From Rubrivivax gelatinosus (GTDB taxonomy: Bacteria; Pseudomonadota; Gammaproteobacteria; Burkholderiales; Burkholderiaceae_C): a DNA stretch of 64,000 nt. This document shows positions 4,867-63,887 of this stretch, piece by piece; the first letter of the stretch is position 1, and every line of letters begins with the position of its first letter. Below the pieces are notes generated by a model that was given only the letters and a program-made list of their open reading frames with translations, had not been told where the DNA came from and made no database searches. Location of the stretch: positions 1 through 64,000 of the forward strand of contig NZ_NRRU01000004.1 of assembly GCF_016583785.1 (NCBI RefSeq), written 5' to 3'. A program made the position numbers and the translations under genes.

Positions 4867-5331
4867 TCAGTGAACAAGGAAGCGCAGCACGAGAACCGTG
4901 GTGCCGAGCGACGAGACGATGCCGGCGACGGCGCCCAACGCAACCTGCAGAACGTAGTTGGCGGTCTGCTCACGGCCGAGGCTCCGGAGCTGGGCGGCCA
5001 CCCCGTTCAGAGCAGGCGCTAATTCCTGCGCGACAACGGTCTTCGAGGCCTTGACCATCGCGCGAGTCTGTTCCTCGATCACCTGACGTCGGGCTTCGTC
5101 GGCCGATCGGATCATGAACTCGGCCATGCGCCGCTGCGCGGTAGCCCCGAGGGCTTCGATGCTGGTCTTCACCGAACCGACAGTGGACGTCAAGGTCTGT
5201 GCTGCGTCGAGCATGGCGCTCCGGGTGTCCTCGACCAGCGGTGGCAGAGCTTCGACGCGCCGGATCAACTCCAGCGCCTCGCCGAGCACGTCAGCCAGCA
5301 GCGCCTCGCGGACAGTCTTGGGGCCTTCCAT
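4867..5331 (-). CDS. stbC: StbC-like plasmid stability protein
   Basis: A 154-residue protein: a long alpha-helical, probably coiled-coil middle (residues 20-115, many Ala/Glu/Arg heptads) and a C-terminal hydrophobic segment (VALGAVAGIVSSLGTTVLVL) that would insert in the membrane. The ATG at 5331 overlaps the stbB stop (TGATG) and has GAGGAG just upstream. StbC is the third gene of the R388-type stbABC operon, which tunes plasmid positioning and transfer. Assignment rests mainly on operon position and topology. Confidence 0.65.
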   Translation of the reverse strand: MEGPKTVREALLADVLGEALELIRRVEALPPLVEDTRSAMLDAAQTLTSTVGSVKTSIEALGATAQRRMAEFMIRSADEARRQVIEEQTRAMVKASKTVVAQELAPALNGVAAQLRSLGREQTANYVLQVALGAVAGIVSSLGTTVLVLRFLVH

Positions 5332-6065
5332 CACAGGCTCCTCGCCATGGGCGCGATTGCCGGGGCGGTGGCACCCAGCTGAAGCGCGGCGAAGCAGGCG
5401 TCCAGCCGCGGCACGACGCCGGCGGCCAAGCGCCGGATGGCGAGCTTGCGGGCGATCACGTAGCGCTCGGCGCTGTCGGCCGCGCGCGCGATGAGCGCCC
5501 TGTAATCCGTGGTGTCGCTCGCCAGCGAGACCAGGTCCGTGCCGCCGGCGAGCTGGAAGACCTCGTTCGCGCCGATGTGGCACGCCGGGTTCGCGACCGC
5601 GATTGGATGGCGGGCCAGGAAGTCCAGCAGGCGGTCGAACACCTCGTCGAACTTAATGTCGTCATCCAGCATGTTGAACACGAGCCGCAGACGATGGGGC
5701 GGGATTCCGAGCTGCGCCAGATGCACCAGGGTTGTGACGGTGTCCTTCTGCGGCTTCTGCGCGGCGACGGTGGGGACGACGAAGCAGTCGAAGTCCTCAT
5801 GGCTGCCCTCGTAGCGGCGCATCAGGGCGAGCAAGTCCTCGACGTTGCTGGCGCCGATGTCGACGATCGCGTCGTCGATGGTCTGCAGGTGCTCCTGCAA
5901 CTGCCCGAACTGGCGGCCCCGCAGCGCGTCGGCCGCCTCTCCATCCTCTGCATTGATGCTCTCGACGGCAATGAGCTGCGCGCCGGGGATTCGTGGCGCC
6001 AGGAGATGGCGGGCGATCGTCGTCTTGCCGACGTTCCCCGAGAAGCTGATGACGGCTACTTTCAT
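5331..6065 (-). CDS. stbB: StbB-type P-loop ATPase
   Basis: A 244-residue ATPase. The N-terminus MKVAVISFSGNVGKTTIA contains the deviant Walker A motif GNVGKTT; AIVDIGASNVEDLL gives the Walker-B-like Asp and GSHEDFDCFVVPTV the next strand. This pattern matches StbB of R388-type stb operons, where StbB favours transfer and StbA favours stability. The gene overlaps stbA by ATGA and stbC by one base, so the three are co-transcribed away from oriT. Confidence 0.85.
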   Translation of the reverse strand: MKVAVISFSGNVGKTTIARHLLAPRIPGAQLIAVESINAEDGEAADALRGRQFGQLQEHLQTIDDAIVDIGASNVEDLLALMRRYEGSHEDFDCFVVPTVAAQKPQKDTVTTLVHLAQLGIPPHRLRLVFNMLDDDIKFDEVFDRLLDFLARHPIAVANPACHIGANEVFQLAGGTDLVSLASDTTDYRALIARAADSAERYVIARKLAIRRLAAGVVPRLDACFAALQLGATAPAIAPMARSL

Positions 6066-6403
6066 TTGGCACTCCGGCTGCGGTAGAGCGGGTTGGACAT
6101 CTGGGCGCCGCCGAACACTTCGTCGGCAACGTCCTTCGGGCTGCTGGTGGGAACGATCGACGGCGTCCGCTGGGGCAGCGTCGGCGGTGGCGTGGCAGCA
6201 GGTTCTGGCTGTGAGTCGCGCCGCGGGCGCCAGGCGAGCTCGCGCTGCACGGTGCTCTTGCTCACGACAACCCCTTCATCGGCCAGCGCCTCGCGGATCG
6301 CTTCCAGCGTGTAGCCCTCGGCGTAAAGCCGCCGGATGTCGTTCGCATAAGCCCGCGCCTTGCGAGAAAGGCGACCGGGCGGTCGTTTCGGGGTCAGGGC
6401 CAT
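6062..6403 (-). CDS. stbA: StbA-like DNA-binding protein
   Basis: A 113-residue basic protein starting at ATG 6403. Residues 10-50 read as a helix-turn-helix (KARAYANDIRRLYAEGY, then EAIREAL, then VSKSTVQREL), followed by a Pro/Thr-rich linker and short tail. In R388, StbA binds repeats near oriT and represses the operon. The equivalent position here, first gene of an stbB-containing operon beside a nic site, supports the call, though sequence similarity to StbA itself was not tested. Confidence 0.65.
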   Translation of the reverse strand: MALTPKRPPGRLSRKARAYANDIRRLYAEGYTLEAIREALADEGVVVSKSTVQRELAWRPRRDSQPEPAATPPPTLPQRTPSIVPTSSPKDVADEVFGGAQMSNPLYRSRSAK

Positions 6404-6883
6404 GACGCTTCTCCTGTCTGCGATCCATTGTTGGCCCGGTCGCAGCTCAAAAGTCCGACGATTTCGGACCCAGATTCGTCGCGTCACTGCAGTAGGACGG
6501 CTTGGAATCTGCCGGGACAAGTTATTTCGGGATTACCCCAGACGCGCTGGAAGTAACCGGAGTTGACCCGCTGTGTAATTGCTCGCTGCCCGGATTCGGC
6601 GTCGTCCGGGTCACGCCAGTAGCCCGGTCGGCGTCGGCTATGGAGCGCTGTCGACGGCCATGACCCGTCGTCGACCCGTCAAGGAGGAGAAGGACCGTAT
6701 ACGCAACGCCGTACCCGCTCGCGCCCCGGTCTCGAATCGGCCTTGAAGAATCGGCATGACGCCTACGACTCGACCATTAACGCTCTTGAACTGCTCGCGT
6801 CTCATCAGTGCAGGCGCTCTCTCGATTGGCGACGAATCGAAGGCCAAAATCGTCGCATTTATAGGCCTCTGAATGGCCAATAC
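6404..6883. other. Non-coding stretch between stbA and oriT
   Basis: About 480 bases with no convincing gene on either strand. Its 3' half (about 6690-6880) is visibly more AT-rich than its surroundings, as expected near an origin of transfer. It should hold the stbA promoter and StbA binding sites, but I could not identify a clear repeat array by eye. Confidence 0.5.
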
Positions 6884-6960: not shown

Positions 6961-7527
6961 ATGAGCAATTCTTCCCACGACTTCGTCAGCGTCGACATGC
7001 GCGGTTTGAAAGCCGCGCTGGTCGAGCGCGCGGCGCGCGATCGGGTCACCGTGTCGGCTGTCGTGCGGGCCGCGGTCGAGCGCCACCTGGGCCCTGACGC
7101 TGCGGCCACGGGGCCAGGCAAGCCGGTCATCGCTGCCGCTCGCCAGCCGGTCAAGGTCTCCATCCGGCTGACGGCCGGCGAAGCAGCCAGCCTGGCCGAC
7201 GGCGCGCGGCGCGCCGGTGTCTCGCGTGGCGCGTACCTGGCCGCGTTGGCGTTGGCACCGGCCGGAGCCGTCCGCGGGGTCGACGGCGCCGCGGCGCTCA
7301 CCGCCTCATGCGCTCAACTGGCGACGCTGGCGCGCGACCTCCGGCAGCTCCGGCTGCTGCTCGCACACGGATCGGTGGAGGCGTCGCAGGCCTACCGGCA
7401 GCGGCTGGACGACGTCGAGCGCCTCGTGCGCCAACACCTCGAGATCTCGGCCGACCTGCTGGCCGAGTTGAGGCCACTGCGGCGTGAGCGCCGCGACACC
7501 CCGCAAGGAGCATCCCATGGCTCGTGA
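6961..7527 (+). CDS. mobC: MobC-like relaxosome accessory protein
   Basis: A 188-residue protein. Residues 10-45 look like a ribbon-helix-helix (VSVDMRGLKAALVERAARDR, then VSAVVRAAVERHL). Residues 60-100 are a second basic segment with the MobC-type VSIRLTAGEAASLADGARRAG pattern, and the rest is a long helix. MobC/TraJ-type proteins bind the inverted repeat beside nic and help the relaxase open the strand. It overlaps the relaxase start by 11 bases. ATG 6961 has no strong Shine-Dalgarno; an in-frame ATG at 6997 is an alternative. Confidence 0.75.
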   Translation: MSNSSHDFVSVDMRGLKAALVERAARDRVTVSAVVRAAVERHLGPDAAATGPGKPVIAAARQPVKVSIRLTAGEAASLADGARRAGVSRGAYLAALALAPAGAVRGVDGAAALTASCAQLATLARDLRQLRLLLAHGSVEASQAYRQRLDDVERLVRQHLEISADLLAELRPLRRERRDTPQGASHGS

Positions 7528-8461
7528 TCCCGCGATCGACGCCGTCCTCGTACAGTGGGGCGACCGGCTGTTCTATCCCGGCAACCGCATCGTGCGCGAC
7601 TCGACGCCGAGGCTCAAGCAGCGGCCGGAGTCACTGGCCAAGCGCTCCGACGCCATTCGCGCGCGCATCGATGCGACGTTCGTGCGCCGGGCGCCGCAGG
7701 TCATGGTCAAGGTGACAGGGGGCGGCAGCGGCATGAAGGCGATCGCCGCGCACTTTCGCTACATCAGCAAGGGCGGCCGGCTCGTCATCGAGGATCAGGA
7801 CGGCACCGAGCTCAAGGGTAGTGGCGCGGTCGCCGAGATCGCCGAGGAGTGGCGCGTCAGCGGCTCGCGGATCGAGGACGTCGGCCCCCGGCGCGAGGCG
7901 TTCAACATCATGCTGTCTATGCCGCGCGGCAAGGCCGAGCCGCACCTGGTGCTGCGCGCCGCGCGCGACTTCGCGAAGAAGGAACTGGCCGGGCACAAGT
8001 ACGTGATGGTGCTGCACGACCACCAGGCGAACCCGCACGTGCACTTGAGCGTCCGCGCGGAAGGGATCGACGGCCGACGGCTGAACCCGCGCAAGGCCGA
8101 CCTGCACCGCTGGCGGGAGACCTTCGCCGAACAGCTCAGGCAGTGGGGCGTGGAGGCCGAAGCAACGCGGCAAGGCACACGAGGCGTGAGCCGCCGCTAC
8201 GACGCGCTGTGGCAGCAGAAGGCGAGGGCGGAAGGGCGTCTGACGCGCGAGACGCGTGGGCCGAAATCGGGCGATTCCGCGCAACGCACGCTGCGCGAAA
8301 GCCACGAGGCCTGGTCCACGGTGGCGGCCGCGCTCCGGAGGTCAGCAGATCCCGGCGACCAGCGGCTTGCAAGGGGAGTGCAGGCGCATCTGGAGTCGCT
8401 CGCGCGTCAGGGCGCTCAGCGGCAGACGCCCCCGCGCGGGATGTCTCGTGAGGGCCGCTGA
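7517..8461 (+). CDS. Relaxase, MOBP-type mobilization nuclease
   Basis: A 314-residue relaxase that would nick oriT and pilot the T-strand. Motif III is clear: HDHQANPHVHLSV, giving His167, Asp168, His169 and the metal-binding His174/His176. The segment AAHFRYISKGG near residue 77-87 is the conserved relaxase strand with Tyr82; the catalytic Tyr could be here or nearer the N-terminus. It is short for a self-transmissible relaxase (no C-terminal primase or helicase). The ATG at 7517 has AAGGAG seven bases upstream. Confidence 0.85.
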   Translation: MARDPAIDAVLVQWGDRLFYPGNRIVRDSTPRLKQRPESLAKRSDAIRARIDATFVRRAPQVMVKVTGGGSGMKAIAAHFRYISKGGRLVIEDQDGTELKGSGAVAEIAEEWRVSGSRIEDVGPRREAFNIMLSMPRGKAEPHLVLRAARDFAKKELAGHKYVMVLHDHQANPHVHLSVRAEGIDGRRLNPRKADLHRWRETFAEQLRQWGVEAEATRQGTRGVSRRYDALWQQKARAEGRLTRETRGPKSGDSAQRTLRESHEAWSTVAAALRRSADPGDQRLARGVQAHLESLARQGAQRQTPPRGMSREGR

Positions 8462-52457: not shown

Positions 52458-53809
52458 CGCGACACCGCCTTCAGCTCGTAGACCGATGAGAAGTCGAGGT
52501 CGCGGGCGACGACGACACCGACGATGCCGCCCTGGTTCTGGTAGATCAGCGGGGGGATGTTGATCGTGCTGTCCAGCACCTTCTCGGCGAGCTTGGACGT
52601 GTTGTCAGTCGTCGACGGCAGCACGATCGTGTCGCCGGAGCGTTCGGTCTGGTTCTGCACGACGAGGTTGACCGAGTCGTCGATGAGCGACAGCAGCATC
52701 GCCGCGCCGATGCGCTCGCCCCAGCGGTTGTCCACGTGGCCGGGAATGCCGGCTTCACCGAGCGGCCCAGTGCCGGGCGAGGCCAGGTCGACGGTGACGC
52801 CCTCCGGCGTGCGCACCCGGGTCCAGAGCACCGGGATGCGCACGGTGCCCGGACGCACCGACGCGATCCGGTACTCGCCGTCCAGATGCGAGCCACGCTC
52901 GATCAGCAGCACGCGGCCGTTGTCGCCATAGACGTTGCGCTGAACCATGCAGCCGACCAGGCCCGAAGCGGCACTCACGACGCGGGTCTTCAGCGCGCAG
53001 GTGAACGACGTGCCTTTGGGCAGCGTGAGGCTTCGGTCCGCGATGCGACCGGCGGCCACTGGTGGCGTCGCCGAGCCCTGCAACTGCCCGCCAAAGAGGC
53101 CGGCGGCCTGGGCGGGTGCGGTAAGCGAGGTCGCCGCATCGGTGGTCGGGGCAGGGATGCCTGCGGCTCCTGCGCTGCGCCCCAGCGCATCGACGACACC
53201 ACGCAGGTGCTGCTGGTAGCCCTCCAGGTTGCGGCGCAGGTTCGACCCGGAGTCTTGCGGCCCGGCGTCGGCAGGCGCGTCTGCAGTCGCCTGGCGACTG
53301 GATGGCCTGCTGGTGACGACCATGACCGGCGCGTCCTCGGGGGCGACAGCCTTCTCGCCCCGGCCGCGCGAGGCGCTACCGGTGCGGCGAACGCCGATCG
53401 GCTCTGCCACCTCCGCGGACGGGTCGATGGCGGGGATGCGTGGTGACGGCGCTGCCGCCGACGATGAGGCCGAAGGCGCAGCGGGCATTTCGAGCGGCTT
53501 GCGTGCGCTGCCGGCAGCGGCCGGTTTCTGCGCGAGCAGTTGATGCGCATCGTCGGCGTCGGTGCCATCGCCAAGCCAGTGCTGTACGGCCACGCCAGCG
53601 ATGGCGCTCAGCATCCCGATCGCCAGCAGGACGGCGACGATGCCCTTCTTCGGCAAGCGGCGGCGCGTGGCCGAAGCGACGTCCGGGATGCCGGGTTCGC
53701 CTGCCAGCGGCTCCAAGCGCTCTCCGGAAGGCGGTGCTGGAGCTTGCCCAGGCGCCGGGGCGTCCGGTTGCCCTGGTGGCGGGCCGTTGGGAGTCCGGTC
53801 GGTGCTCAT
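52454..53809 (-). CDS. virB10: VirB10 core-complex protein
   Basis: A 451-residue protein: cytoplasmic Pro-rich start, one membrane helix (GIVAVLLAIGMLSAIAGVAV, about 56-76), Pro/Ala/Ser-rich periplasmic linker, and the C-terminal TrbI/VirB10 barrel (PKGTSFTCALKTRVVSAASG, IPVLWTRVRTPEGV, RWGERIGAAMLLSL). It spans both membranes. Overlaps virB9 and virB11 by four bases each. Confidence 0.93.
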   Translation of the reverse strand: MSTDRTPNGPPPGQPDAPAPGQAPAPPSGERLEPLAGEPGIPDVASATRRRLPKKGIVAVLLAIGMLSAIAGVAVQHWLGDGTDADDAHQLLAQKPAAAGSARKPLEMPAAPSASSSAAAPSPRIPAIDPSAEVAEPIGVRRTGSASRGRGEKAVAPEDAPVMVVTSRPSSRQATADAPADAGPQDSGSNLRRNLEGYQQHLRGVVDALGRSAGAAGIPAPTTDAATSLTAPAQAAGLFGGQLQGSATPPVAAGRIADRSLTLPKGTSFTCALKTRVVSAASGLVGCMVQRNVYGDNGRVLLIERGSHLDGEYRIASVRPGTVRIPVLWTRVRTPEGVTVDLASPGTGPLGEAGIPGHVDNRWGERIGAAMLLSLIDDSVNLVVQNQTERSGDTIVLPSTTDNTSKLAEKVLDSTINIPPLIYQNQGGIVGVVVARDLDFSSVYELKAVSR

Positions 53810-54753
53810 CGCGAGGCTCCTGGCTCGGTGCTGCGATCGGCCCGCAACAGCGGCGCCGGCTGCGGTCGGTCTGGCCCGGCCGGCGGCTCGACCGCTGCCG
53901 TCTGCGGAGCCGGGTGCTCCCGCATGACGCGCGCGACCCCGAGCACCGTCGTCGCGTTCTCGGGCGGCACGCCATCCAGGTCGAAGCCGTCGTTCCAGAC
54001 CGCGACGACGGCGCTGCCGGCGCGCAGCTTCAGGCGCCGGCTGACACGGTCGACGACGAGCAGGTCGCCTTCCATGCGCGCATTGACCAGCGTCTCGCTG
54101 CCGTCGCCGAGCACGTGGAACACAGCCGGCACCTCGCGGTTGTTCGGGAATCGCAGGTAGGTGAAGCGGCCGTCGTCGAACATCAGCGTCGGCACGATGT
54201 GCTCGGAGCCCGCGCCTTCGGCGATCGAGTAGCTGGCGTTGACCACGGCCGGGGCGGTGCCGAGCCGTTCCGCGACGATGTCGGCCTCGCGTACCTGGGG
54301 CAATGAGGGCAGCGTGGCTGCAGCGACCTCGGAGCGCTTCGGCGGCGCCGGTGACTTCAGCGCCAGCCGATAGACGGGTTGGCGCGCATCGCGGTCGGCG
54401 AGCACCTGGAAGCGCAGCATGTAGCTGCGGCGATCGGTGACGACGGCCAGGTTGTTCGGCTCGTGTGCCGCGCTGCGCGCCTTGACGAAGAGGTTGCGGC
54501 CGCCTGCCTGGGCGGAGACGCACCAGCTCGCGTCGGGCTTGGCACAGTCGGCGCCGAGGCCGCTCGCCACCTCGACAATCGATTCGTCGGCAGCCAGCTC
54601 GACGTGTGTGACAGTGCCCTTGCGCACCGGCACGGTGACGACGGCGCCGGAGTCGTAGACGACTTCCTTCAGCCGCGGATCAGCGGCCAGTGCCGGTGTG
54701 ATGCCGAGCGCCAGCAGCGCAGCGGCGGCGATTGAGGTGGCGGCGCTTCGCAT
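53806..54753 (-). CDS. virB9: VirB9 core-complex protein
   Basis: A 315-residue periplasmic protein with signal peptide (AAALLALGITPALA). VirB9 signatures: DPRLKEVVYDSGAVVTVPVR, NLFVKARSAAHEPNNLAVVT and the C-terminal VPTLMFDDGRFTYLRFP and RLKLRAGSAVVAVWND. The C-terminus is extended and Pro-rich. Confidence 0.92.
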   Translation of the reverse strand: MRSAATSIAAAALLALGITPALAADPRLKEVVYDSGAVVTVPVRKGTVTHVELAADESIVEVASGLGADCAKPDASWCVSAQAGGRNLFVKARSAAHEPNNLAVVTDRRSYMLRFQVLADRDARQPVYRLALKSPAPPKRSEVAAATLPSLPQVREADIVAERLGTAPAVVNASYSIAEGAGSEHIVPTLMFDDGRFTYLRFPNNREVPAVFHVLGDGSETLVNARMEGDLLVVDRVSRRLKLRAGSAVVAVWNDGFDLDGVPPENATTVLGVARVMREHPAPQTAAVEPPAGPDRPQPAPLLRADRSTEPGASR

Positions 54754-54760
54754 CGCATCC

Positions 54761-55495
54761 TCACGGCTGAGCCCGCGCCAGTGTCGCGAGCGGCACGGTG
54801 CCGATCTCGGGATCGGAGCGGTAGGCCAGGACGACGAAGCCGAGCGGGTTCTCGAGCCGGTCGGCCTCGTTGGACAGCACCTTGGGCTGGTACTCGTAGA
54901 CGATGCTGGCCACGTGGCGCGTCGTCACATCGGGCGCACCGCGGACGGGCTGGCGCACGGTCTTCTCATACGTCACGGTGGCCTCGCCGCGCGTGCCCTT
55001 GCGGCCGGTGGCGGCAAGCCGAACGCCGACAACGTCGATGCGCCACTCCTCGTTGCCGGCCAGGCGCTTCTGCAAAGAGGCCTCGCCCTCGAACTGGCGC
55101 CTGTAGTCGGCGAAGACCGCCGGCACCGCCATGCGCGCGACCTGGTCGTAGTCACGCTGCAGCCACCACCAGTTGTAGCCCTCGCGGTTGCGCACGAAGA
55201 CGGCGGCGTTGTGTTTGTCCAGCGACTCCTGAACCGGGATCGTCTCCTCGGTGAGCCGCTGCTGCACCGTCGTCTCGCCGGTGCGCTTGTCGACGACGAT
55301 GGGCAGCGGCACGACCTGCTGCAGCGGGCCGTGCGCGAGCACGGCGCCGACCGCCAGCACGGCGACGAAGCCGGAGGCCATCGCAACGCGCCAGGCGCGG
55401 CGCTCGGAGCGCTCCAGCATCTCGGCGCGGTCGACTTCCCAGGCCGCATTGGCACGGCCGAACACGTTGTCGGCCATTGAACGAAGGTCCATCAC
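54761..55495 (-). CDS. virB8: VirB8 inner-membrane assembly protein
   Basis: A 244-residue protein with an N-terminal membrane helix (about 37-56) and a periplasmic NTF2-like VirB8 domain (IPVQESLDKHNAAVFVRNRE, YNWWWLQRDYDQVA, EWRIDVVGVRLAATG). ATG 55492 is an equally good start. It lies nine bases after virB5. Confidence 0.92.
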   Translation of the reverse strand: MMDLRSMADNVFGRANAAWEVDRAEMLERSERRAWRVAMASGFVAVLAVGAVLAHGPLQQVVPLPIVVDKRTGETTVQQRLTEETIPVQESLDKHNAAVFVRNREGYNWWWLQRDYDQVARMAVPAVFADYRRQFEGEASLQKRLAGNEEWRIDVVGVRLAATGRKGTRGEATVTYEKTVRQPVRGAPDVTTRHVASIVYEYQPKVLSNEADRLENPLGFVVLAYRSDPEIGTVPLATLARAQP

Positions 55496-56249: not shown

Positions 56250-57293
56250 TCAGCGCGGCCGATTCGGCTGATGGCTGCCGGAGGCCGCGTCGCGGGCCGC
56301 ACGCGCCGCTCTCGCCGCAGCACCGACGCCGCGACCGACCAGATTTCCGGCGGTGTAGGGGACGCCGCCGCCGCCCCGAATCGAGCCGCCGGTGAGGCTG
56401 CTCACCGTCTTGTTGCCCTTGCGAAGGCCCGAGACGATGAGCGCGTTCTGCAGCATCTGGATGCCCTGCTGGACGACCGGGCCGCCAGTGAGGGCAGCGG
56501 CAAGGGCCGGTGCCTGGAAGCAGAGGATCGCCATCACGAGCATCAACACGCAGTAACGCAACGACTCGCCGAGCACGTTGAGGTTGGGCCCGAGGAATCC
56601 TCCGCCCTCTTCGATGGCGAGAAAAACCTCCCGGCCCAGGTACGTGCTCAGGCCCAGAGCAAAGAACGAGAACCAGGTCAGGACGACTGCGTTCAGAAGC
56701 ATCGAGACCCAACTATCGAAAAAACGCTGTGTCGGCTTCCACGCGAGTGCGAACACGAAGACAGGTCCTATGCCGAGCACAAACGTGAGCAGTGCGGTCG
56801 AGAGCGTCACGACGAACACGGCAATGCACAGGAACGCAACCGAGCCGAATGCGAAGGCAATGGTCGCGAAGACGAGGTCCAGGCGAAGCAGGCTGGCCTC
56901 TTTCAAAATGTCGAAGGTCTGCTTGCTGGCGCTGGTGTTGAATTCGTCGAGTAGTTCGTATGGCGAGGTGACCAGTTCCGCGGGAGAGCCAGCCGGCACA
57001 AATGCGGTCGCAACACTCAGCGCGAGATCCTTGGCTGATTCGGCGATTGTCGATATGTACAAACCGCTCTGCAGGGCAACAGCGAATATCATCGACAGCT
57101 TCACGAGCTTCCAGACGAACTGCGGTACGGTTTCGTTGACCTCGCCTCGCAATACGGAATATCCGAACAAGAGGATCCATACCGTCATTGAAATGAGCAC
57201 CATCGGAGCCAACATTGTGCAAAGTTTGCTCACGACCTCAAGAACGTAAGTGCTCAATATTGTCGACACCTTCTCGCCGAGCCAGGTAAACAT
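56250..57293 (-). CDS. virB6: VirB6 polytopic inner-membrane protein
   Basis: A 347-residue membrane protein with about six helices (LVLISMTVWILLFGYSVL, LMIF-type stretch, FVVTLSTALLTFVLGIGPVF, CVLMLVMAILCFQAPALAAAL). It forms part of the DNA channel. The C-terminal tail is Gly/Ala/Arg-rich. Confidence 0.88.
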   Translation of the reverse strand: MFTWLGEKVSTILSTYVLEVVSKLCTMLAPMVLISMTVWILLFGYSVLRGEVNETVPQFVWKLVKLSMIFAVALQSGLYISTIAESAKDLALSVATAFVPAGSPAELVTSPYELLDEFNTSASKQTFDILKEASLLRLDLVFATIAFAFGSVAFLCIAVFVVTLSTALLTFVLGIGPVFVFALAWKPTQRFFDSWVSMLLNAVVLTWFSFFALGLSTYLGREVFLAIEEGGGFLGPNLNVLGESLRYCVLMLVMAILCFQAPALAAALTGGPVVQQGIQMLQNALIVSGLRKGNKTVSSLTGGSIRGGGGVPYTAGNLVGRGVGAAARAARAARDAASGSHQPNRPR

Positions 57294-57304: not shown

Positions 57305-57721
57305 CTACTGGATGGCGTCAGGCGCCATGTTTGCGGGCGGTCGGGCGAACAGTGGCTTGCACTTGCTCCCGAGTTCGGGGTATTGGCACTGGACCCATTC
57401 GTCTTTGCGAAGAACGACCCAAACGCGCCGAAGCTTTTGACTGCCGTATGTCGATGTGCGGCATGCGCCTGGTCGTGCGAACGGATCCGTGCACTCCATG
57501 AGTCCGTCCTTCGTCTCCACCATGCGCCAGGCGCCCGCATGGCAGCTGGCGTCGGCGCGGCAGACTTGTCCCATCGATGCCGGCACCGGTGGCGTCGTCA
57601 CAACCTTCCCGGTCGCGGTCATCCGCACGGCCTCGTTGCCCTTCACGAACTGCGCATGCGCGGGGCAGAGGGCGAGGGCGGTCACGGCCGTGGCAAGGCC
57701 GAGCAGGGTGACGGTGTTCAT
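57305..57721 (-). CDS. Small secreted Cys-containing transfer protein
   Basis: A 138-residue protein with signal peptide (LLGLATAVTALALCPAHA) and a mature part with six Cys in pairs (VCRADASCHAG, ECTDPFARPGACR, QCQYPELGSKC), suggesting disulphides. I do not recognise the family. It lies between virB4 (ATGA overlap) and virB6, a slot often used by extra periplasmic T4SS proteins. Confidence 0.7.
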   Translation of the reverse strand: MNTVTLLGLATAVTALALCPAHAQFVKGNEAVRMTATGKVVTTPPVPASMGQVCRADASCHAGAWRMVETKDGLMECTDPFARPGACRTSTYGSQKLRRVWVVLRKDEWVQCQYPELGSKCKPLFARPPANMAPDAIQ

Positions 57722-60186
57722 CGGGCGCTCCTGGACGAGTTGGCGGTGCGCTCGCGCACCGCGCCCAGGAAGGGCGCCATCCAGTCCCGAGGGTCGTCAC
57801 CCACCGTTGCGCGGATGCTGTCGAGCAGCGCCACGTTATCCGTCGTGCCCGACAGCACCGTAACGAAGTCCTGCATGCCGGCGAGGTCCAGCTCGCACAG
57901 CGCGCTCTCGTGGCCTTGCTTGACCAGGAAGCGGCGTCCGCCGGTCGAGGACAGGCTGCGCACGATGCCGAACTCGGCCTCGGTGAGCCCGAAGCCTTCG
58001 ACGTACTCGTCGCGCTGCGCCTCGGGGTTGGCCAGGAAGATCTTGGTCACGCTCTGCTCAACCATCGTGCGGCCGATCGCGTGCTGCAGCACGTCCGACG
58101 GGCTCTGGGTGTCGAAGATCCCCAGGCCGTTCTGCTTGCGGATCGTCTTCTGTTTCTGCTTGGCGAAGTCGCTGAAGACCCGGTTGTCGAGCGCCTTCCA
58201 GAACTCCGAGATCACGTAGATCAGCCGGCTGCCGTCGACCAGTTCGCCCATCACGTCGAGCAGGTAGAGCATCACCGGTGTGCGCACCTCGGGCAGGTCC
58301 AGGAACTCGGTCGTGTCGAAGCCGATGGCCGAGGCCTGGTGCAAGTCGACCAGCCGGTCGTCTGCCTCGTCGAACACCCAGCCGAGCGCGCCACCGGCGC
58401 ACCAGCGGGCCATGCGGTCGTGCAGGCTGTTGCCGCCGCCCTTGGGGAGGTTCTGGCGCACGGTGGAGAAGCGGCGCAGCGGCCGCGGCATCAGCGCCAC
58501 AGCCCGTACGGCACGTGCGATGGCCTGCTCGTCGGCCGGCAGCAGCGGCAGTGCCGGCGTCTCCAAGCAGGTCCGCACGAGCTGTTCCCAGAACTGGATC
58601 CGTGCCGGCGTGGGATCGCGCTGCAGCGGGTTGCAGCCGGTCGGCTTGCCGGCCTCGAGCGTGAAGTAGCGCCCGCCGATGGCGCGCAGCGCGATCTCGC
58701 TGCCGCGGTCCAGGTCGAACAGCACCAGGCGCGGCGCCGGTTGCCACTTGCGCGTCATCGCCAGCAGGAACATCACGAGCGTCGTCTTGCCGACGCCGGT
58801 CGAGCCGATGACGAGCGTGTTGCCGGGGAGCTTCTTGTCCTCGGAGTCCTCGTCGTCGGGGCTCTTGTGGAGGTTCAAGTAGAAGGGCTGGCCACTGGGC
58901 GTGCGCAGCAGCGCCAGCGCTTCGCCCCAGGGGTTGCCGTCACGCTTGCCGCCGGCGAAGGCGTGCTGGCTGGCCAGCGCCGCGAAGGCCCGCGACGATA
59001 GCTGGGCCGCGCGCGGGCGCCAGCGCCAGTTGCCGGGCCACTGCGAGAACCACGCCGCGTCGGCCACCAGGTCGACCGGCCTCAGCTGCAGGCTGCACGA
59101 CTCGCCGACCGCGCCGACCGCCTGCGCCGAGCGGCGCGAGGCATCCGCCGCATCGGCGCCGAAGACGAGCAGGCTGTAGTGGTACTCGCCCATGCAGAAT
59201 TGGCCGTCGCCGAGTTCGTTGAGTGCGACATCCATGTCTTCGATCTGGGTCGCGACGACGTCCTCGCTGGCCATCAGCTGGTTGCGCTGCAGCGTCAGTG
59301 CCCGCATCGCCTCGCGCCGCGGCAGGATCGAGAAGCTCTGCGTCTCGACGAACTCGCTTTGCTCGTAGAGCAGCGCGTTCAGCACACCCGGGGCGACGGT
59401 GTCGGCGTACTCGTGAATGTCGGCGAAGGCCGCGTGGCGGCGCAGATCGCCGAAGCGGATCTCGACGGTGGCGCCCCCGAAAGACAGGCGCGAGGCGGGC
59501 AGCGTCCGGTACAGCGGCCCGGCCTGCAACGGGACCGGCCGGCGGACCCCGTTGACCAGGAAGCCCAGGAACTCGGCGACCTCGGAGAAGCGCATGCCGT
59601 GGCGCTCGGCGCTGCCGAGCAGCTCCGGCCCGAAGCCGCGCAGCACGCGGTGCACGAGCGCGGTCCTCTCCTGCATCACGCGCAGCGCCTCGGCCTGGTC
59701 GCGCGCGATCTCGTCGCGGCTGCGCCGGGTGTTGCGGACCGCGCGGGCGGCCGCGTCGCGCTGCGGGCGGTAGACGAGCGTGAGGTACAGCTCGTTGCCC
59801 AGCATCCGGGTGCCCTGCAGCGAAGTCGCATAGGCACGCGCCAGGTCCTGTGCGAAGCCTGGCTCGGACGGCTCGATCAGAGCATCGTCCAGGCGCCGGT
59901 GCACGCGGTGGGTCCAGAGCGCGAACTGGCCGCCAGCGAGGTTGCGCAGCAGGCTGCACAGCGCCTCGTGGCGGTCGGCGATGCGGTGCGGATCGGCGCA
60001 CTCGAACGCGACGCCGTCCAGACGCCACACGCGCAGCCAGTCGCCGCCGCGGGTGATGACGTCGTGCTCGGTGACCAGCGACGAGAACGGCACAAAGCGC
60101 GACAGCGCGTTCTCCTGGGCAGCCCGGTCCCAGTAGCGGGGCTTGGCCGTCGCCGTGGGGCGCAGCAGATCAGCGAACGCGGGCAT
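57718..60186 (-). CDS. virB4: VirB4/TrbE secretion ATPase
   Basis: An 822-residue ATPase. The N-terminal domain begins PAFADLLRPTATAKPRYWDR; Walker A is IGSTGVGKTTLVMFLLAMTR and Walker B is LIYVISEFWKAL. It energises pilus assembly. It overlaps virB3 by 17 bases and the next gene by four. Confidence 0.95.
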   Translation of the reverse strand: MPAFADLLRPTATAKPRYWDRAAQENALSRFVPFSSLVTEHDVITRGGDWLRVWRLDGVAFECADPHRIADRHEALCSLLRNLAGGQFALWTHRVHRRLDDALIEPSEPGFAQDLARAYATSLQGTRMLGNELYLTLVYRPQRDAAARAVRNTRRSRDEIARDQAEALRVMQERTALVHRVLRGFGPELLGSAERHGMRFSEVAEFLGFLVNGVRRPVPLQAGPLYRTLPASRLSFGGATVEIRFGDLRRHAAFADIHEYADTVAPGVLNALLYEQSEFVETQSFSILPRREAMRALTLQRNQLMASEDVVATQIEDMDVALNELGDGQFCMGEYHYSLLVFGADAADASRRSAQAVGAVGESCSLQLRPVDLVADAAWFSQWPGNWRWRPRAAQLSSRAFAALASQHAFAGGKRDGNPWGEALALLRTPSGQPFYLNLHKSPDDEDSEDKKLPGNTLVIGSTGVGKTTLVMFLLAMTRKWQPAPRLVLFDLDRGSEIALRAIGGRYFTLEAGKPTGCNPLQRDPTPARIQFWEQLVRTCLETPALPLLPADEQAIARAVRAVALMPRPLRRFSTVRQNLPKGGGNSLHDRMARWCAGGALGWVFDEADDRLVDLHQASAIGFDTTEFLDLPEVRTPVMLYLLDVMGELVDGSRLIYVISEFWKALDNRVFSDFAKQKQKTIRKQNGLGIFDTQSPSDVLQHAIGRTMVEQSVTKIFLANPEAQRDEYVEGFGLTEAEFGIVRSLSSTGGRRFLVKQGHESALCELDLAGMQDFVTVLSGTTDNVALLDSIRATVGDDPRDWMAPFLGAVRERTANSSRSAR

Positions 60187-60499
60187 CGCGGCCTCCGCGG
60201 TAGGGATACGGGGCGTAGCTGCGCGCGCCCCAGAAGTGGCGATTGCGGTCCAGCAGCCGCAGGCGCATCGCGAGGAAGGCCTGGCGAAAACGCTGGTCGT
60301 CCTTGCGCGTGAGGTACCGCATCCAGACGAGCGCCGGCACCAGGCCGAGACCCGCCACCGGCACGATCCACCAGGTCAGGATCGGGCCGATCCACAGGAC
60401 CAAGAGCGCGCTGCCGCCCACGAGCACGACGAACGGCACCAGGGGCACGCCGAAGAGCATCGGCGGCCGCGTCGCGCCCTTGTAGATGGCCTCGGCCAC
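60170..60499 (-). CDS. virB3: VirB3-like protein
   Basis: A 109-residue protein with two N-terminal membrane helices (LFGVPLVPFVVLVGGSALLV and IGPILTWWIVPVAGLGLVPA) preceded by the VirB3 leader MAEAIYKGATRPPM, then a basic tail. Partner of VirB4. Confidence 0.9.
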   Translation of the reverse strand: MAEAIYKGATRPPMLFGVPLVPFVVLVGGSALLVLWIGPILTWWIVPVAGLGLVPALVWMRYLTRKDDQRFRQAFLAMRLRLLDRNRHFWGARSYAPYPYRGGRDARVR

Positions 60500-60509
60500 G
60501 ACGTGCCCC

Positions 60510-60857
60510 TCAGGCGACGATGAAGCTGGAGAAGGCCGCCGCGCCGCCGATCAGCGTGCCGCCGATCAGGACGTTGGCGACGTCGGACAGGCGGGCGCCC
60601 TGGAAGATCATCTTGAAGCCCGCCCAGATGATCGCGATCGTCACGACCGCGATCGAGATCACGATGAGGATGTCCTCGATCTTGATGACGGTCTCGTTGA
60701 TCTTCTCGAAGCCCTGGGCGAAGACCGGCGGCGGCAGCAGCGCCGAGGCGATGCACAGCCACAGGACGATGACGGCCAGCAGGCCGCGGCGATTGAAGGG
60801 ACGCGGTTCGGAGGGACGCGACGGCTCGATGCGTCGCAGGAACAGGTTCCAGCGCAT
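60510..60857 (-). CDS. virB2: VirB2 major pilin
   Basis: A 115-residue pilin precursor: long signal (LLAVIVLWLCIASALLPPPVFA, cleavage near AQ), then two hydrophobic helices (ILIVISIAVVTIAIIWAGFKM and VLIGGTLIGGAAAFSSFIV). The start at 60857 has a GGAG site; an upstream ATG at 60890 is less likely. Confidence 0.88.
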   Translation of the reverse strand: MRWNLFLRRIEPSRPSEPRPFNRRGLLAVIVLWLCIASALLPPPVFAQGFEKINETVIKIEDILIVISIAVVTIAIIWAGFKMIFQGARLSDVANVLIGGTLIGGAAAFSSFIVA

Positions 60858-60912
60858 GGTGCTCTCCAGTGAACTGACGGCGGGGGACACAAGCTCAGGC
60901 TCTGCGCCGTCG

Positions 60913-61389
60913 TCACGGGGGCTTCATCAGGCGCATCGTTCGTGCCGCGTCGACGACGCGGGCGACGTAGCCGTGGGAGATGCCGGTGCTGAAGTCGCCG
61001 GCGTAGTAGCAGGACAGGGCCCGCTGGAGCGAACGCTGGCCGGGCAGGCCGGCGCGGTCGAAGCACTCGCCGAGCACCTGCTGCATCGCCTGCAGGTTGC
61101 GGCAGGCATCGAAGGCAGCTGCCGGGTCCAGGTTCAGACGCGCGAAGTTGGCGCGGTTGATCTGCGCCAGGCCCAGGCTGTAGTTCCAGCCGTCGCGCTC
61201 CAGCATCGCCACGGTCGCCAGCGCCTCGGTGCGGTGGCGCGGCTGGCGCTCCAGGCGGCCGCCGACGACGCCGATGGCGTACGGGTTGGCGCCGCTCTCG
61301 GTGTCGATGAGCAAGAGCGCGGTGCTGGGGTGCACCTGCGGCGCACAGGCGACGACCAGCGAGGTGAGGGCGGCGGGGTCCAGCGGCAT
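60913..61389 (-). CDS. virB1: VirB1-like lytic transglycosylase
   Basis: A 158-residue SLT-domain enzyme that opens peptidoglycan for the channel. Catalytic Glu in LLLIDTESGANPYAIGVVGG, then YSLGLAQINRANF and SCYYAGDFSTG. No signal peptide is apparent from this start, so export is unclear. Confidence 0.85.
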   Translation of the reverse strand: MPLDPAALTSLVVACAPQVHPSTALLLIDTESGANPYAIGVVGGRLERQPRHRTEALATVAMLERDGWNYSLGLAQINRANFARLNLDPAAAFDACRNLQAMQQVLGECFDRAGLPGQRSLQRALSCYYAGDFSTGISHGYVARVVDAARTMRLMKPP

Positions 61390-61396
61390 GGCGGCC

Positions 61397-61924
61397 TCAG
61401 CAGTCGGAGCAGCCCGAGCCTTCGGGCGGCTGGCTGGCCTGCCAGCGCGCGAAGTCTTCGTCGAAGCGCGTGTCCCAGCCCGGCAGCTGCGCCTTGGCGA
61501 CGTCGCTGAACTCGGTGACGCTGTCGCCGCTGTTCCACCAGGTGCGGCTCCAGAGCTGGTTGTCGATCTGGACCGAGATCGCGCCGCGCCAGTCGCAGAC
61601 GTACTCCGGCCCGTTGGGCGCATCGACCTGTCGCGTGTACTGGGGCGGGCAGAAGGCGGGAGCTGCCGCCCATTGGTGGCCGGACCGGTTTCCCGGCCCG
61701 GCCATGTCGCAAGTCGGGAACGGCCGGCCGTGCCGAAGGTCGCGAAAGAGCTGGTGGATCGGCGGCACGCACTGCGGGATGGACCTCCAGCTCGGAGCGG
61801 CCAGGCACAGCAGCACCAGGCAGCCATCGAGCGCCTGGACATGAGCGCATGCAAGCATCAGGGCCAGGGGGGCGGCCAGCTTGGCAGCCCTGGCCTTGCG
61901 CTCTACAGTGGGTTGGCGGTTCAT
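61397..61924 (-). CDS. Secreted Cys-rich protein, first gene of transfer operon
   Basis: A 175-residue protein with signal peptide (AKLAAPLALMLACAHVQA). The mature part has eight Cys (for example CLVLLCLAAPSW, CDMAGPG, CPPQYTR, CDWRGA and the final CSDC). It lies seven bases before virB1 and reads as the first gene of the minus-strand transfer operon. Function unknown; similar proteins occur in T4SS regions of this type. Confidence 0.68.
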   Translation of the reverse strand: MNRQPTVERKARAAKLAAPLALMLACAHVQALDGCLVLLCLAAPSWRSIPQCVPPIHQLFRDLRHGRPFPTCDMAGPGNRSGHQWAAAPAFCPPQYTRQVDAPNGPEYVCDWRGAISVQIDNQLWSRTWWNSGDSVTEFSDVAKAQLPGWDTRFDEDFARWQASQPPEGSGCSDC

Positions 61925-62016
61925 GTCGCACTCGGGATGGATTGAGGGGCCGGGAAGCGATTGGATCGGCTGCATCGGTGCCTTCAATCTAAACCCAATA
62001 CGGGTCAATAAATGCG

Positions 62017-63117
62017 ATGACTTCGAACACCAATTCGTCGCACCAAGGGCCGCAACACCCACCGGCTCCTGTGTCAGACATTGAATCGATCGGTGGCTAC
62101 TTCCACACGAACCGGATCGAGATCCAGGACTTCCGGTATTACGCTCTCGTCGTGGACTTGAGGCCGCGCATTGATTTCGAACGGGATCACCTTCCGGGTG
62201 CGTTCCATTACGTCCCGGGCGATCCCGATGACTCGTCAGGCGGCGCGCGATTGGCCCAGGAGGCGGCGCCGCGGTCCTACATGCCGGACCCGCTCGGGAC
62301 GCTGCTGGCCCGGGTCAGGCCGGGGCAGCGGGTGCTGCTCTACTGCACCAGCGGCGAGCCGACGGCGCGCAACCTGGCGGCCGCGCTGCGACTGCAAAAC
62401 TTGGGGGTCGACGTGCTGCCGGGCGGCTGGGACAGCTACCGGCAATGGGTGCGTGCCGGGCTCGAGTTGCTGCCTCGTCTGGTGAGCTGGCGGGTGCTCG
62501 CGTCGCCGCTGGGCTGCGAGACCTCGCGCGTGCTCGACAGCATGGGGGCGCACGAGACGCACCAGACGCTCGACCTGCAGCGCATGGCCGGCTGGACGGC
62601 CGGCTCGAGGCAGGCCGCGGGGACGCAGCCGAGCCAGGAGGCCTTCGAGACAGCCATCATCGACCGGCTGCGAGACTTCAGTGCCGAACGGCCGGTCTGG
62701 ACCAGCTTCGTGCCCCGACAACTCGGCGCCCTGGAGCTTCCCCCGGCGCTCGGCGACGCGATCGCCGTGTCGCCGCTTTACCGGCTCGACGTCCCGCTGC
62801 CCGAACGGCTGCGGCACTGGCGGCACAGCGACGCCGAGGACGCCGGTGAGCCCGCTAGCGGGCAGGACGTTGCGGACGAGATGCTGGCCGCGACGCTTCT
62901 CGGCGAACTCGCCCCTGACCTCGAAGCTCAGGTGTCGGCTGTCGGCATATCCCGCCGCGAGTTGCCGGTACTGGCCTTCGATTCGTTCGAGCCGGCAGCG
63001 CTGTCCGCGGCGATTCGCGCCTGGCTCGGCGAGGAGGATGACGCAGACGACGAGGATGGCGAAGACAGGGCGGATGAGGGCGAGGACGAGGACGGCGAGT
63101 CCAGCAGGCCGGCATGA
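62017..63117 (+). CDS. SelU/MnmH-like protein with destroyed P-loop
   Basis: A 366-residue protein aligning with tRNA 2-selenouridine synthase in order. The rhodanese domain (about 45-150: VVDLRPRIDFERDHLPGAF, LLYCTSGEPTARNLAAALR, LPGGWDSYRQW) keeps the Cys. The P-loop domain is degraded: where SelU has GxTGxGKT it has ASPLGCETSRVL. Further matches are LDLQRMAGWTAGS, QPSQEAFETAI and VWTSFVPRQLGALELP. The last 60 residues are highly acidic. It cannot be a normal selU enzyme. Confidence 0.7.
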   Translation: MTSNTNSSHQGPQHPPAPVSDIESIGGYFHTNRIEIQDFRYYALVVDLRPRIDFERDHLPGAFHYVPGDPDDSSGGARLAQEAAPRSYMPDPLGTLLARVRPGQRVLLYCTSGEPTARNLAAALRLQNLGVDVLPGGWDSYRQWVRAGLELLPRLVSWRVLASPLGCETSRVLDSMGAHETHQTLDLQRMAGWTAGSRQAAGTQPSQEAFETAIIDRLRDFSAERPVWTSFVPRQLGALELPPALGDAIAVSPLYRLDVPLPERLRHWRHSDAEDAGEPASGQDVADEMLAATLLGELAPDLEAQVSAVGISRRELPVLAFDSFEPAALSAAIRAWLGEEDDADDEDGEDRADEGEDEDGESSRPA

Positions 63118-63887
63118 ACCGCCAGCTTCACGGCGCCGCGGCGGCGGGTCACGCCCAGCCGCCGATTGAGTCGCCGCACTCGCGAGTCGACGGCGCACGC
63201 GCTGAGCGCGAGCTTGGGGGCGATCTGCTTGCTCGTCAGCCCGGCCTCGAGATCCATCAGCAGCGCGCGGTCCTCCTCATCCAGGCCGGCGAGCGCGAGC
63301 ACATCCTGGTTCGCCTGCTCGATCCACCACTCGTGCAGTTCGAACGCCACGGTGCGCGCTTGCAGGCGCAGCGCCGCAAAGGCCGCGTCGTCGTGAAAGT
63401 AGCCCGGCGTCGCCGAGCCCAGGCATAGCAGCCCGCGGCGCGTGTAGCCCAGCGGGCCGTGGACGGGCACCAGTACCGTCGAGGCGAAGCCGCAGGCGCG
63501 GGCCACCTCGAACGCCACGGGGTAGTCGCCGGTGAGCCGGCCCAGCCGCTCGGCCACGGCGACCGGCAGGCGCTCCATCGCGTAGGCGACCCAGGGGTGC
63601 GCCTTGCAGTCGCGCGTGCCCTGGAGCTCGTCGGCCAGCAGGGGATCGCAGGCGGTCAGCACGCCGCACGCCTCGACGCCGTCTCCGTCCCGCACGAAGC
63701 TCGCGAAGGCGGCTCTCTCCGCCCCCAGCGCCTGGGCCACATCGCGAAGGCGCTCAACGGCTTCTGAAGCATCTGCGGCATCCGCGATGCGCATAGCCGC
63801 CGCATGAACCCGGGCCGGGTAGTCCGCACGCGAGACGACCGCAGCCAGCGCACGGGCCTCACGCCCGGTCGAGCAGGCGGCGGCCAT
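62928..63887 (-). CDS. LuxR-family regulator with GAF/autoinducer-like domain
   Basis: A 319-residue protein. Residues 45-190 are an autoinducer- or GAF-like sensor (AERAAFASFVRDGDGVEACG, LGYTRRGLLCLGSATPG). Residues 205-265 are a LuxR-type HTH (LDEEDRALLMDLEAGLTSKQ, VDSRVRRLNRRLGVTRRRGA). The Ser-rich tail is antisense to the acidic tail of the SelU-like gene (190-base convergent overlap) and may be an overlap artefact. Start ATG 63887 has AGGAG upstream. Confidence 0.72.
   Translation of the reverse strand: MAAACSTGREARALAAVVSRADYPARVHAAAMRIADAADASEAVERLRDVAQALGAERAAFASFVRDGDGVEACGVLTACDPLLADELQGTRDCKAHPWVAYAMERLPVAVAERLGRLTGDYPVAFEVARACGFASTVLVPVHGPLGYTRRGLLCLGSATPGYFHDDAAFAALRLQARTVAFELHEWWIEQANQDVLALAGLDEEDRALLMDLEAGLTSKQIAPKLALSACAVDSRVRRLNRRLGVTRRRGAVKLAVHAGLLDSPSSSSPSSALSSPSSSSASSSSPSQARIAADSAAGSNESKASTGNSRRDMPTADT

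Follow-up and report, generated by a model that had tools for sequence, protein, structure and literature searches.

An MnmH-derived protein without a P-loop, probably a conserved pseudoenzyme, in a LuxR cassette beside conjugation genes

Introduction

The MnmH/SelU family comprises two-domain tRNA-modification enzymes in which a rhodanese domain with a Cys is followed by a P-loop half. For the Salmonella enzyme, PMC4830565 reports that with the Walker change K155A only <1% of geranylation was left when the mutant was chromosomal and 6% when it was on a plasmid, that changes of C97 left 26-87% of geranylation while selenation requires C97, and that purified MnmH G67E,K155A still carried tRNA. 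Mobile elements carry a CFRGG-type MnmH together with an AlkB/desaturase-like gene and a LuxR-type gene, for example on pCal35 and on plasmid 2 of Polaromonas JS666. In our literature search, such an MnmH-monooxygenase-LuxR stretch turned up in one paper, where a single sentence of the Collimonas arenae Cal35 genome announcement describes it (PMC4290994). The intact plasmid copies that we inspected are annotated simply as mnmH, so the annotation may mislead. Our search of full-text literature, with most subscription papers outside its scope, returned no account of an MnmH that lacks the P-loop.

Here, we analyzed such a protein from Rubrivivax gelatinosus, its relatives and their genomic surroundings. 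The window is the whole stretch of 64,000 nucleotides in which the gene lies, and we named the gene psiMnmH.

Results

The frame of psiMnmH is intact and its codon bias is coding-like (GC1/2/3 = 0.73/0.50/0.84). The best NCBIfam match of the protein is MnmH/SelU, with scores far below the equivalog cut-off of NF008752 (E 2.6e-29, 102.1 bits; cut-off 266) and below that of TIGR03167 (71.8 bits; cut-off 219.75). Four other P-loop-less proteins, at 161-177 bits, also fell under the NF008752 cut-off. The rhodanese domain passed the PF00581 cut-off of 22.2 bits (E 3.1e-9, 37.6 bits). A separate full MnmH (353 bits) is encoded elsewhere in the host genome, on contig C17. An earlier note, made from the sequence alone, had described psiMnmH as a SelU-like protein with a lost ATP site, a kept rhodanese Cys and an added acidic tail of about 60 residues. 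The derivation from MnmH, the lost P-loop and the kept Cys were all borne out; the tail exists, with 17 Asp or Glu, but at less than half that length (Table 1).

Alignment with relatives showed ASPLGCETS at the Walker A position, where an intact relative has CGPTGCGKT, and the protein contains no G-x4-GK[ST], as the earlier note had read from the letters. The changes around DLE that it pointed to were also seen against 14 relatives: DLE has become DLQ, and the following His and Arg are changed. The E-x-ESKK stretch is missing. Beyond these observations, the rhodanese loop is altered to CTSGEPTA, with loss of the RGG after the kept Cys, and the MnmH-specific rhodanese insertion of about 36 residues is replaced. 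By eye, the intact insertion pattern EYAEVG..H.T....AY..GV.YSLRNI was found in none of the P-loop-less rows of the alignment. The acidic tail is absent from all 14 aligned relatives and is known only from the window copy. It lies where psiMnmH and the LuxR gene overlap on opposite strands (62928-63117), and the window LuxR gene has an extra Ser-rich tail of its own in the same both-strand stretch. In our reading, the 3' ends of the two genes were joined by loss of the DNA between them.

Table 1. Positions of psiMnmH, its neighbours and the 26-bp dyad copies in the window
Feature	Position	Strand	Basis or remark
psiMnmH, MnmH/SelU-derived pseudoenzyme, 366 aa	62017..63117	+	ORF, profiles, tree, alignment
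Rhodanese domain, residues 34-147	62116..62457	+	PF00581; top structural match 3g5j, Z 12.5
Retained rhodanese Cys110 codon	62344..62346	+	alignment with relatives
Degenerate Walker A SPLGCETS, residues 163-170	62503..62526	+	alignment with relatives
Acidic C-terminal tail, 28 residues	63031..63114	+	overlaps 3' part of opposite-strand LuxR ORF
LuxR-type regulator	62928..63887	-	GerE; Autoind_bind under cut-off; convergent with psiMnmH
Small conserved T4SS-linked protein, first gene of T4SS operon	61397..62062	-	true start probably near 61924
Lytic transglycosylase (SLT), VirB1-like	60913..61854	-	profile match
TrbC/VirB2 pilin	60510..60890	-	profile match
VirB3	60170..60499	-	profile match
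VirB4 ATPase	57718..60186	-	profile match
TrbL/VirB6	56250..57293	-	VirB-type T4SS gene
VirB8	54761..55495	-	VirB-type T4SS gene
VirB9-like (CagX)	53806..54753	-	VirB-type T4SS gene
26-bp dyad, putative operator	62015..62040	.	overlaps psiMnmH start codon, divergent region with T4SS operon
Second dyad copy, 27.1 bits	6456..6481	.	start of leftward operon: HTH gene 6062-6487, weakly ParA-like gene 5331-6065
Third, weaker dyad copy, 16.0 bits	6830..6855	.	upstream of NikA-like gene 6961-7527 and relaxase gene 7484-8461

We searched for relatives of the window protein in 61 genomes of related organisms, 81 genomes of the genus and a 399-genome sample of the family. The window protein alone found no relative; an alignment of intact relatives did. 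Together with a search for homologous LuxRs (see below), this yielded sixteen P-loop-less, T4SS-linked loci from 14 genomes: L028 (the window), L030, L153, L188-L195, L208, L209, L210, L227 and L249. Loci entered this set for lacking the P-loop and having a T4SS neighbour, so the Walker Lys count of 0/16 holds by definition. The rhodanese Cys is retained at all 16. A further locus, L180 in genome G735, has lost both residues, had no T4SS found beside it and stands outside the set; with it, the Cys count is 16/17. Because 15 further loci share the combination seen in the window, the missing P-loop is not a sequencing error, the alternative that the earlier note had named, and intact and P-loop-less relatives both exist.

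The Walker Lys is present in 89/89 intact rows, of which at least six are repeat entries of a locus already among them; these rows were chosen by the motif CFRGGK, which fixes their Cys and RGG counts by construction. Among the P-loop-less proteins, R-G-G after the Cys is mostly retained (Arg 13/16, Gly 16/16, Gly 15/16), and 13 of the 16 keep C-x-R-G-G, the window copy not among them. The loop Arg is replaced by Asp in 12/16. Walker A, DLE-HRG and E-x-ESKK residues are mostly lost, with group-specific Walker A replacements: LG-x-E in seven group A rows and mostly AP- in the rest. In a tree of 59 rows, 10 of the 16 proteins and L180 grouped into a single clade (SH-aLRT 97). It lies within the CFRGG branch (100), whereas the MnmH of the host genome itself falls in the separate CWRGG branch (100). 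No row has a longer branch than that of the window (1.79). Long branches may affect the support of the P-loop-less clade, and the exact place of the window row is unsure.

The structure was modelled with AlphaFold2 from the window protein aligned with 34 relatives (mean pLDDT 73.7, pTM 0.70). Block means of pLDDT were 89-95 at residues 31-60 and mostly 82-97 at residues 91-270 (68 at 191-200), and low at residues 71-90 and from about 271 on. The rhodanese part matched the N-terminal rhodanese domain of a putative C. difficile ATP/GTP-binding protein (3g5j; Z 12.5, rmsd 2.6 over 95 residues) as well as GlpE (1gmx, Z 11.5, residues 31-149). Foldseek gave 751 matches at E <= 10, most of them weak, and 2 at E <= 0.001; a second structural comparison matched mainly residues 31-149. 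For the P-loop half, helices and strands are predicted and no confident structural match was found.

Selection was estimated by the Nei-Gojobori method for 10 pairs of P-loop-less genes, six of which had dS under 1. Their dN/dS was 0.14 (L161/L162), 0.19 (L150/L162), 0.20 (L150/L161), 0.31 (L004/L167), 0.24 (L167/L179) and 0.17 (L004/L179), where L179 is the frame beyond the apparent break of L195; five intact pairs gave 0.09-0.19. By region, three pairs gave 0.11, 0.11 and 0.11 for the P-loop half, 0.06 and 0.14 (two group A pairs) and 0.55 (L004/L167) for the rhodanese part, and 0.37, 0.40 and 0.44 for the C-terminal part.

One reading of these data is that the rhodanese half alone works, as an independent sulfurtransferase or persulfide sensor, with LuxR a mere neighbour. 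The match to GlpE and other sulfurtransferases, the Cys and first loop Gly at all 16 loci and the low rhodanese ratios of the two group A pairs fit it. However, the P-loop half is about equally constrained, the loop Arg is mostly Asp, the L004/L167 pair shows weaker constraint on its rhodanese part, and psiMnmH is co-inherited with LuxR (see below), so we hold this reading to be quite unlikely.

Another reading takes psiMnmH for a relic, left behind after deletion of the desaturase gene and decaying without function. Some copies do decay: L249 is truncated (231 aa), L195 has an apparent frameshift near its start, and L180 is half-decayed and without the Cys. The weakly constrained C-terminal part, the long window branch and the window LuxR, which lacks conserved residues, also speak for it. 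Against it stand the ratios of the six close pairs, open frames at 15/16 loci (that of L249 shortened), the invariant Cys and the group-specific motifs. For the family, this reading is already weakened and appears improbable: given dN/dS of 0.14-0.31 in six close pairs, psiMnmH is a maintained pseudoenzyme at the family level. The window copy itself, with a highest identity of 41-45% to its relatives, is the most diverged and may be decaying; its lone pair gave a ratio of 0.40 at a dS of 1.47, too high to tell.

We then compared the surroundings of the genes. At all 16 P-loop-less loci, the same VirB-type genes lie on the flank opposite the LuxR gene, with VirB4 proteins 67-77% identical to that of the window. 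The LuxR gene is convergent with and adjacent to psiMnmH in 14/16, the exceptions being L153 (contig end) and L249 (LuxR about 22 kb away). The recurrence of this arrangement in other conjugative elements, which the earlier note had proposed as a check, points to conjugation control. A desaturase gene was found at none of the 15 readable P-loop-less loci. Among 84 intact CFRGG loci, 34 have both desaturase and LuxR genes, 50 have neither in the flanks read, and none has a single one; the 50 are an upper bound, owing to a flank effect, as some have the desaturase-LuxR pair about 20 kb off (G665, G569; L213, L214). We had considered intact MnmH without LuxR or desaturase as a separate state and rejected it, since it is partly this flank effect, as G665 and G569 show. 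The desaturases of intact cassettes belong to PF00487 in 5/5 tested.

Homologous LuxRs were searched in the 399 genomes of the family and found at 61 places in 43 genomes, of which 53 places were inspected. Desaturase and LuxR genes occur without MnmH in the stretch read at L213-L217, L219, L221, L224 and L237, and LuxR occurs alone at further loci. LuxR and T4SS genes occur without MnmH in the stretch read at nine loci (L218, L222, L226, L236, L239, L241, L242, L244 and L252), so LuxR does not always depend on MnmH. The genome of the window also has another VirB-type element, at L244 (C13:14000-32000). Its LuxR belongs to class B and is separated from the T4SS operon by about 1.08 kb, and a group B-type dyad lies at L244:1683.

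Several further observations concern these surroundings. A few kb past the LuxR gene, just beyond the window (L028:10118-15776, contig C4 about 66117-71775), padloc detected a type II CBASS-like operon with an E1-E2 protein, a nucleotide cyclase, an HNH-SAVED effector and an exonuclease-type gene. Among intact loci, L211 (G735:C298) has a full-type cassette whose intact-type MnmH is apparently split by a frame change; a 2779-aa ORF beside intact MnmH at L032:6994-15333 (G016) is SpvB/RHS-like by eye and probably cargo; and an annotated IscB gene lies near the MnmH-desaturase-LuxR cassette of Polaromonas JS666 plasmid 2 (L025:12922-14358).

The window LuxR scored 15.9 bits for Autoind_bind, under the 23-bit cut-off. 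A Tyr and an Asp of its autoinducer-binding domain, which we take from TraR to be ligand-pocket residues, are changed in the window and kept in 16/17 aligned rows. The LuxRs linked to P-loop-less genes at L190 and L030 have both the autoinducer-binding and the GerE domain over cut-off. LuxI (PF00765) was found in none of the 14 host genomes of P-loop-less loci, the window's included. Three of 25 genomes, each of which carries a full cassette, gave weak LuxI matches, over the cut-off in G636 and G711 and under it in G155; the 14 control genomes supplied no positive control.

To see how the genes are inherited, we built a VirB4 tree (36 rows; 15 P-loop-less loci, without L030, whose VirB4 is partial; one element in twice, as L113 and L220). 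Elements with psiMnmH, with intact MnmH and without MnmH are intermixed in it, with seven changes of the psiMnmH state, at least five of them forced, and P-loop-less, full and LuxR-only elements occur among near-identical VirB4s. Over 13 of the 16 loci (without L153, L195 and L249), distances between psiMnmH and LuxR correlated at r 0.88, those between psiMnmH and VirB4 at 0.31. The partial Mantel value for psiMnmH and LuxR given VirB4 was 0.89 (p 0.0002), that for psiMnmH and SLT given VirB4 0.17 (p 0.10). Without the window, the two correlations were 0.89 and 0.23, and in a smaller set 0.84 and 0.35. Within group A (5 loci) they were 0.84 and 0.77, with 0.95 for LuxR and VirB4; within group B (7 loci), 0.88 and 0.30, with 0.61.

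As psiMnmH and LuxR distances correlate while the VirB4 backbones mix, the two genes travel as a cassette that is swapped between transfer backbones. Such co-inheritance can stem from tight linkage alone and is no proof of contact. Within their sets, no psiMnmH or LuxR has diverged further than that of the window. This also holds for the window VirB4, VirB3, VirB6 and SLT, and the divergence of psiMnmH and LuxR therefore says little for a joint decay. Three genomes contain two elements: L202/L210 (G542), L188/L208 (G802) and L192/L209 (G640). The pair in G542 consists of one full and one P-loop-less element, so both types of cassette can come together in the same cell.

A search for short palindromes and shared k-mers yielded a 26-bp dyad, with a consensus of roughly CGATGAnTTC-N6-GAAnTCATCG, between psiMnmH and the T4SS operon. 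The dyad is also present in full-module elements and lies upstream of the T4SS genes at L218, L236, L226, L222 and L245, loci whose read stretch yielded no MnmH; it is therefore not merely a coding constraint. In the window, the motif matched at 62015, 6456 and 6830 and in 0 of 100 shuffles, the pattern having been built from the first two sites. A DUF7673 gene (1669-2055) is closely preceded by an additional weak copy (15.5 bits, 1613-1638). The sites at 6456 and 6830 sit between the HTH/ParA-like operon and the NikA-like and relaxase operon, so psiMnmH is apparently under the same regulator as the DNA-processing genes.

A first matrix, from nine seeds including the window, was run on 77 loci and the window. 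It gave 18 non-seed sites above 20 bits and a 19th at 20.0; its maxima on reversed sequence were 16.7 bits (loci) and 7.0 bits (window). It found no site in six plasmid cassettes or at L113/L220. A matrix rebuilt from five seeds showed weaker co-variation with LuxR: above 18 bits, 15/33 loci with a class A or F LuxR had a site vs 1/17 with class B (p 0.004), and at 15.6 bits, the reversed maximum, 17/33 vs 3/17 (p 0.03). The class B loci L030, L193, L194 and L195 have a different dyad at the same place. With this conservative matrix, co-variation of operator and LuxR is only moderate, and many loci may miss the right region. We take the dyad to be the putative operator of LuxR.

Discussion

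Taken together, psiMnmH is very probably a conserved pseudoenzyme in a LuxR cassette of conjugative elements. Without the Walker Lys, the protein should not geranylate tRNA; by analogy, the Salmonella mutants give good support for a lost geranyl transfer, and selenation is doubtful. The earlier note had excluded both transfers by the usual route; for selenation this is less certain, the C97-type Cys being kept. Its suggestion of a role in sulfur or selenium transfer of the host is not favoured: MnmH and SelD were over cut-off in 11 of the 12 host genomes tested (all 14 but G856 and G761), and in G802 (96% complete), which has two P-loop-less copies, neither was.

Such a protein may instead act as a decoy or antagonist: still able to bind (c)mnm5s2U tRNAs, it would compete with the host MnmH or shield these tRNAs. 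The tRNA that co-purified with the Salmonella G67E,K155A mutant (PMC4830565) agrees with this, as do the predicted fold of the P-loop half (for residues 151-270, pLDDT block means are mostly in the range 82-97, with 68 for 191-200) and its constraint in three pairs (about 0.11). The two copies in G802 do not, nor does the replaced rhodanese insertion, where geranylation-enhancing changes cluster, and the tie to LuxR and the missing desaturase would be left unexplained. We consider a decoy unlikely.

Anticodon nucleases attack Lys, Glu and Gln tRNAs. These are the substrates of MnmH, and psiMnmH might protect their wobble uridine against host nucleases during transfer. The catalytic P-loop is gone, we saw no link to any nuclease, and padloc gave no hit for psiMnmH; a part in counter-defence is thus very improbable.

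A regulatory role is favoured over a tRNA role because of the inheritance of psiMnmH in a LuxR cassette, its position at the transfer operon and the host without a selenouridine pathway. In our proposal, the gene derives from the mobile-element branch of MnmH. Its P-loop, or geranyl-donor, half has lost the catalytic residues, while its fold is predicted to persist, and the rhodanese half retains its Cys. Selection in the family keeps the gene, which is inherited with LuxR as a two-gene cassette where a conjugation operon of the VirB type begins, with the dyad as the presumed operator of LuxR. Most likely without modifying tRNA, psiMnmH would decide with LuxR when conjugation starts, possibly by binding LuxR or its ligand or by reporting the sulfur or redox state through the Cys. 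We infer both the action through LuxR and the sign of the effect. The partnership with LuxR is a tentative proposal, and for the statement as a whole, an MnmH-derived pseudoenzyme of a LuxR cassette that works with LuxR at the onset of conjugation and does not modify tRNA, we see about even chances.

A bolder extension is conjugation signalling free of LuxI. MnmH and the AlkB/desaturase-like enzyme of full cassettes would make or modify a non-AHL ligand of LuxR (e.g. prenyl- or thio-), cassettes with psiMnmH would only listen, psiMnmH binding the ligand or LuxR, and the cassettes, whether full, with psiMnmH or with LuxR alone, would be exchanged among near-identical transfer backbones like mating-type or quorum-sensing alleles. 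This is a rather unlikely scenario. Beside intact MnmH, desaturase and LuxR were seen together or not at all, which opens a LuxI-independent signal to a direct test.

Whatever its action, psiMnmH offers a clear natural example of a tRNA enzyme with two domains that dropped one active site and kept the other. Intact and dead versions share a locus in related mobile elements, and a tRNA-modification enzyme family is tied to the region from which conjugation genes are controlled.

Compared with known systems, psiMnmH resembles MnmH/SelU (NF008752, TIGR03167) in its two-domain order, its rhodanese Cys and the hydrophobic core of the P-loop half, but differs in profile scores far below the equivalog cut-offs, in the loss of most Walker A, DLE-HRG and E-x-ESKK residues and in the replaced insertion. 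With the mobile CFRGG-type MnmH it shares the branch, a homologous LuxR and, in many elements, VirB-type genes nearby, in the identical place in L199-L201; in those cassettes the P-loop is intact and a desaturase is present, whereas the psiMnmH loci are without the P-loop and no desaturase was found in them. GlpE/PspE-type single-domain rhodaneses share the fold of residues 31-149 and the catalytic Cys, while psiMnmH is fused to an NTPase-derived half and has the loop CTSGEPTA in the window and C-x-R-G-G-x-D-S in many relatives. Finally, LuxR/TraR control of conjugation uses protein anti-activators of the TraM or QseM type. Like these systems, the psiMnmH loci have a LuxR-type gene at the transfer operon and a partner gene; unlike them, their 14 hosts gave no LuxI match, and the putative partner is a relative of a tRNA enzyme.
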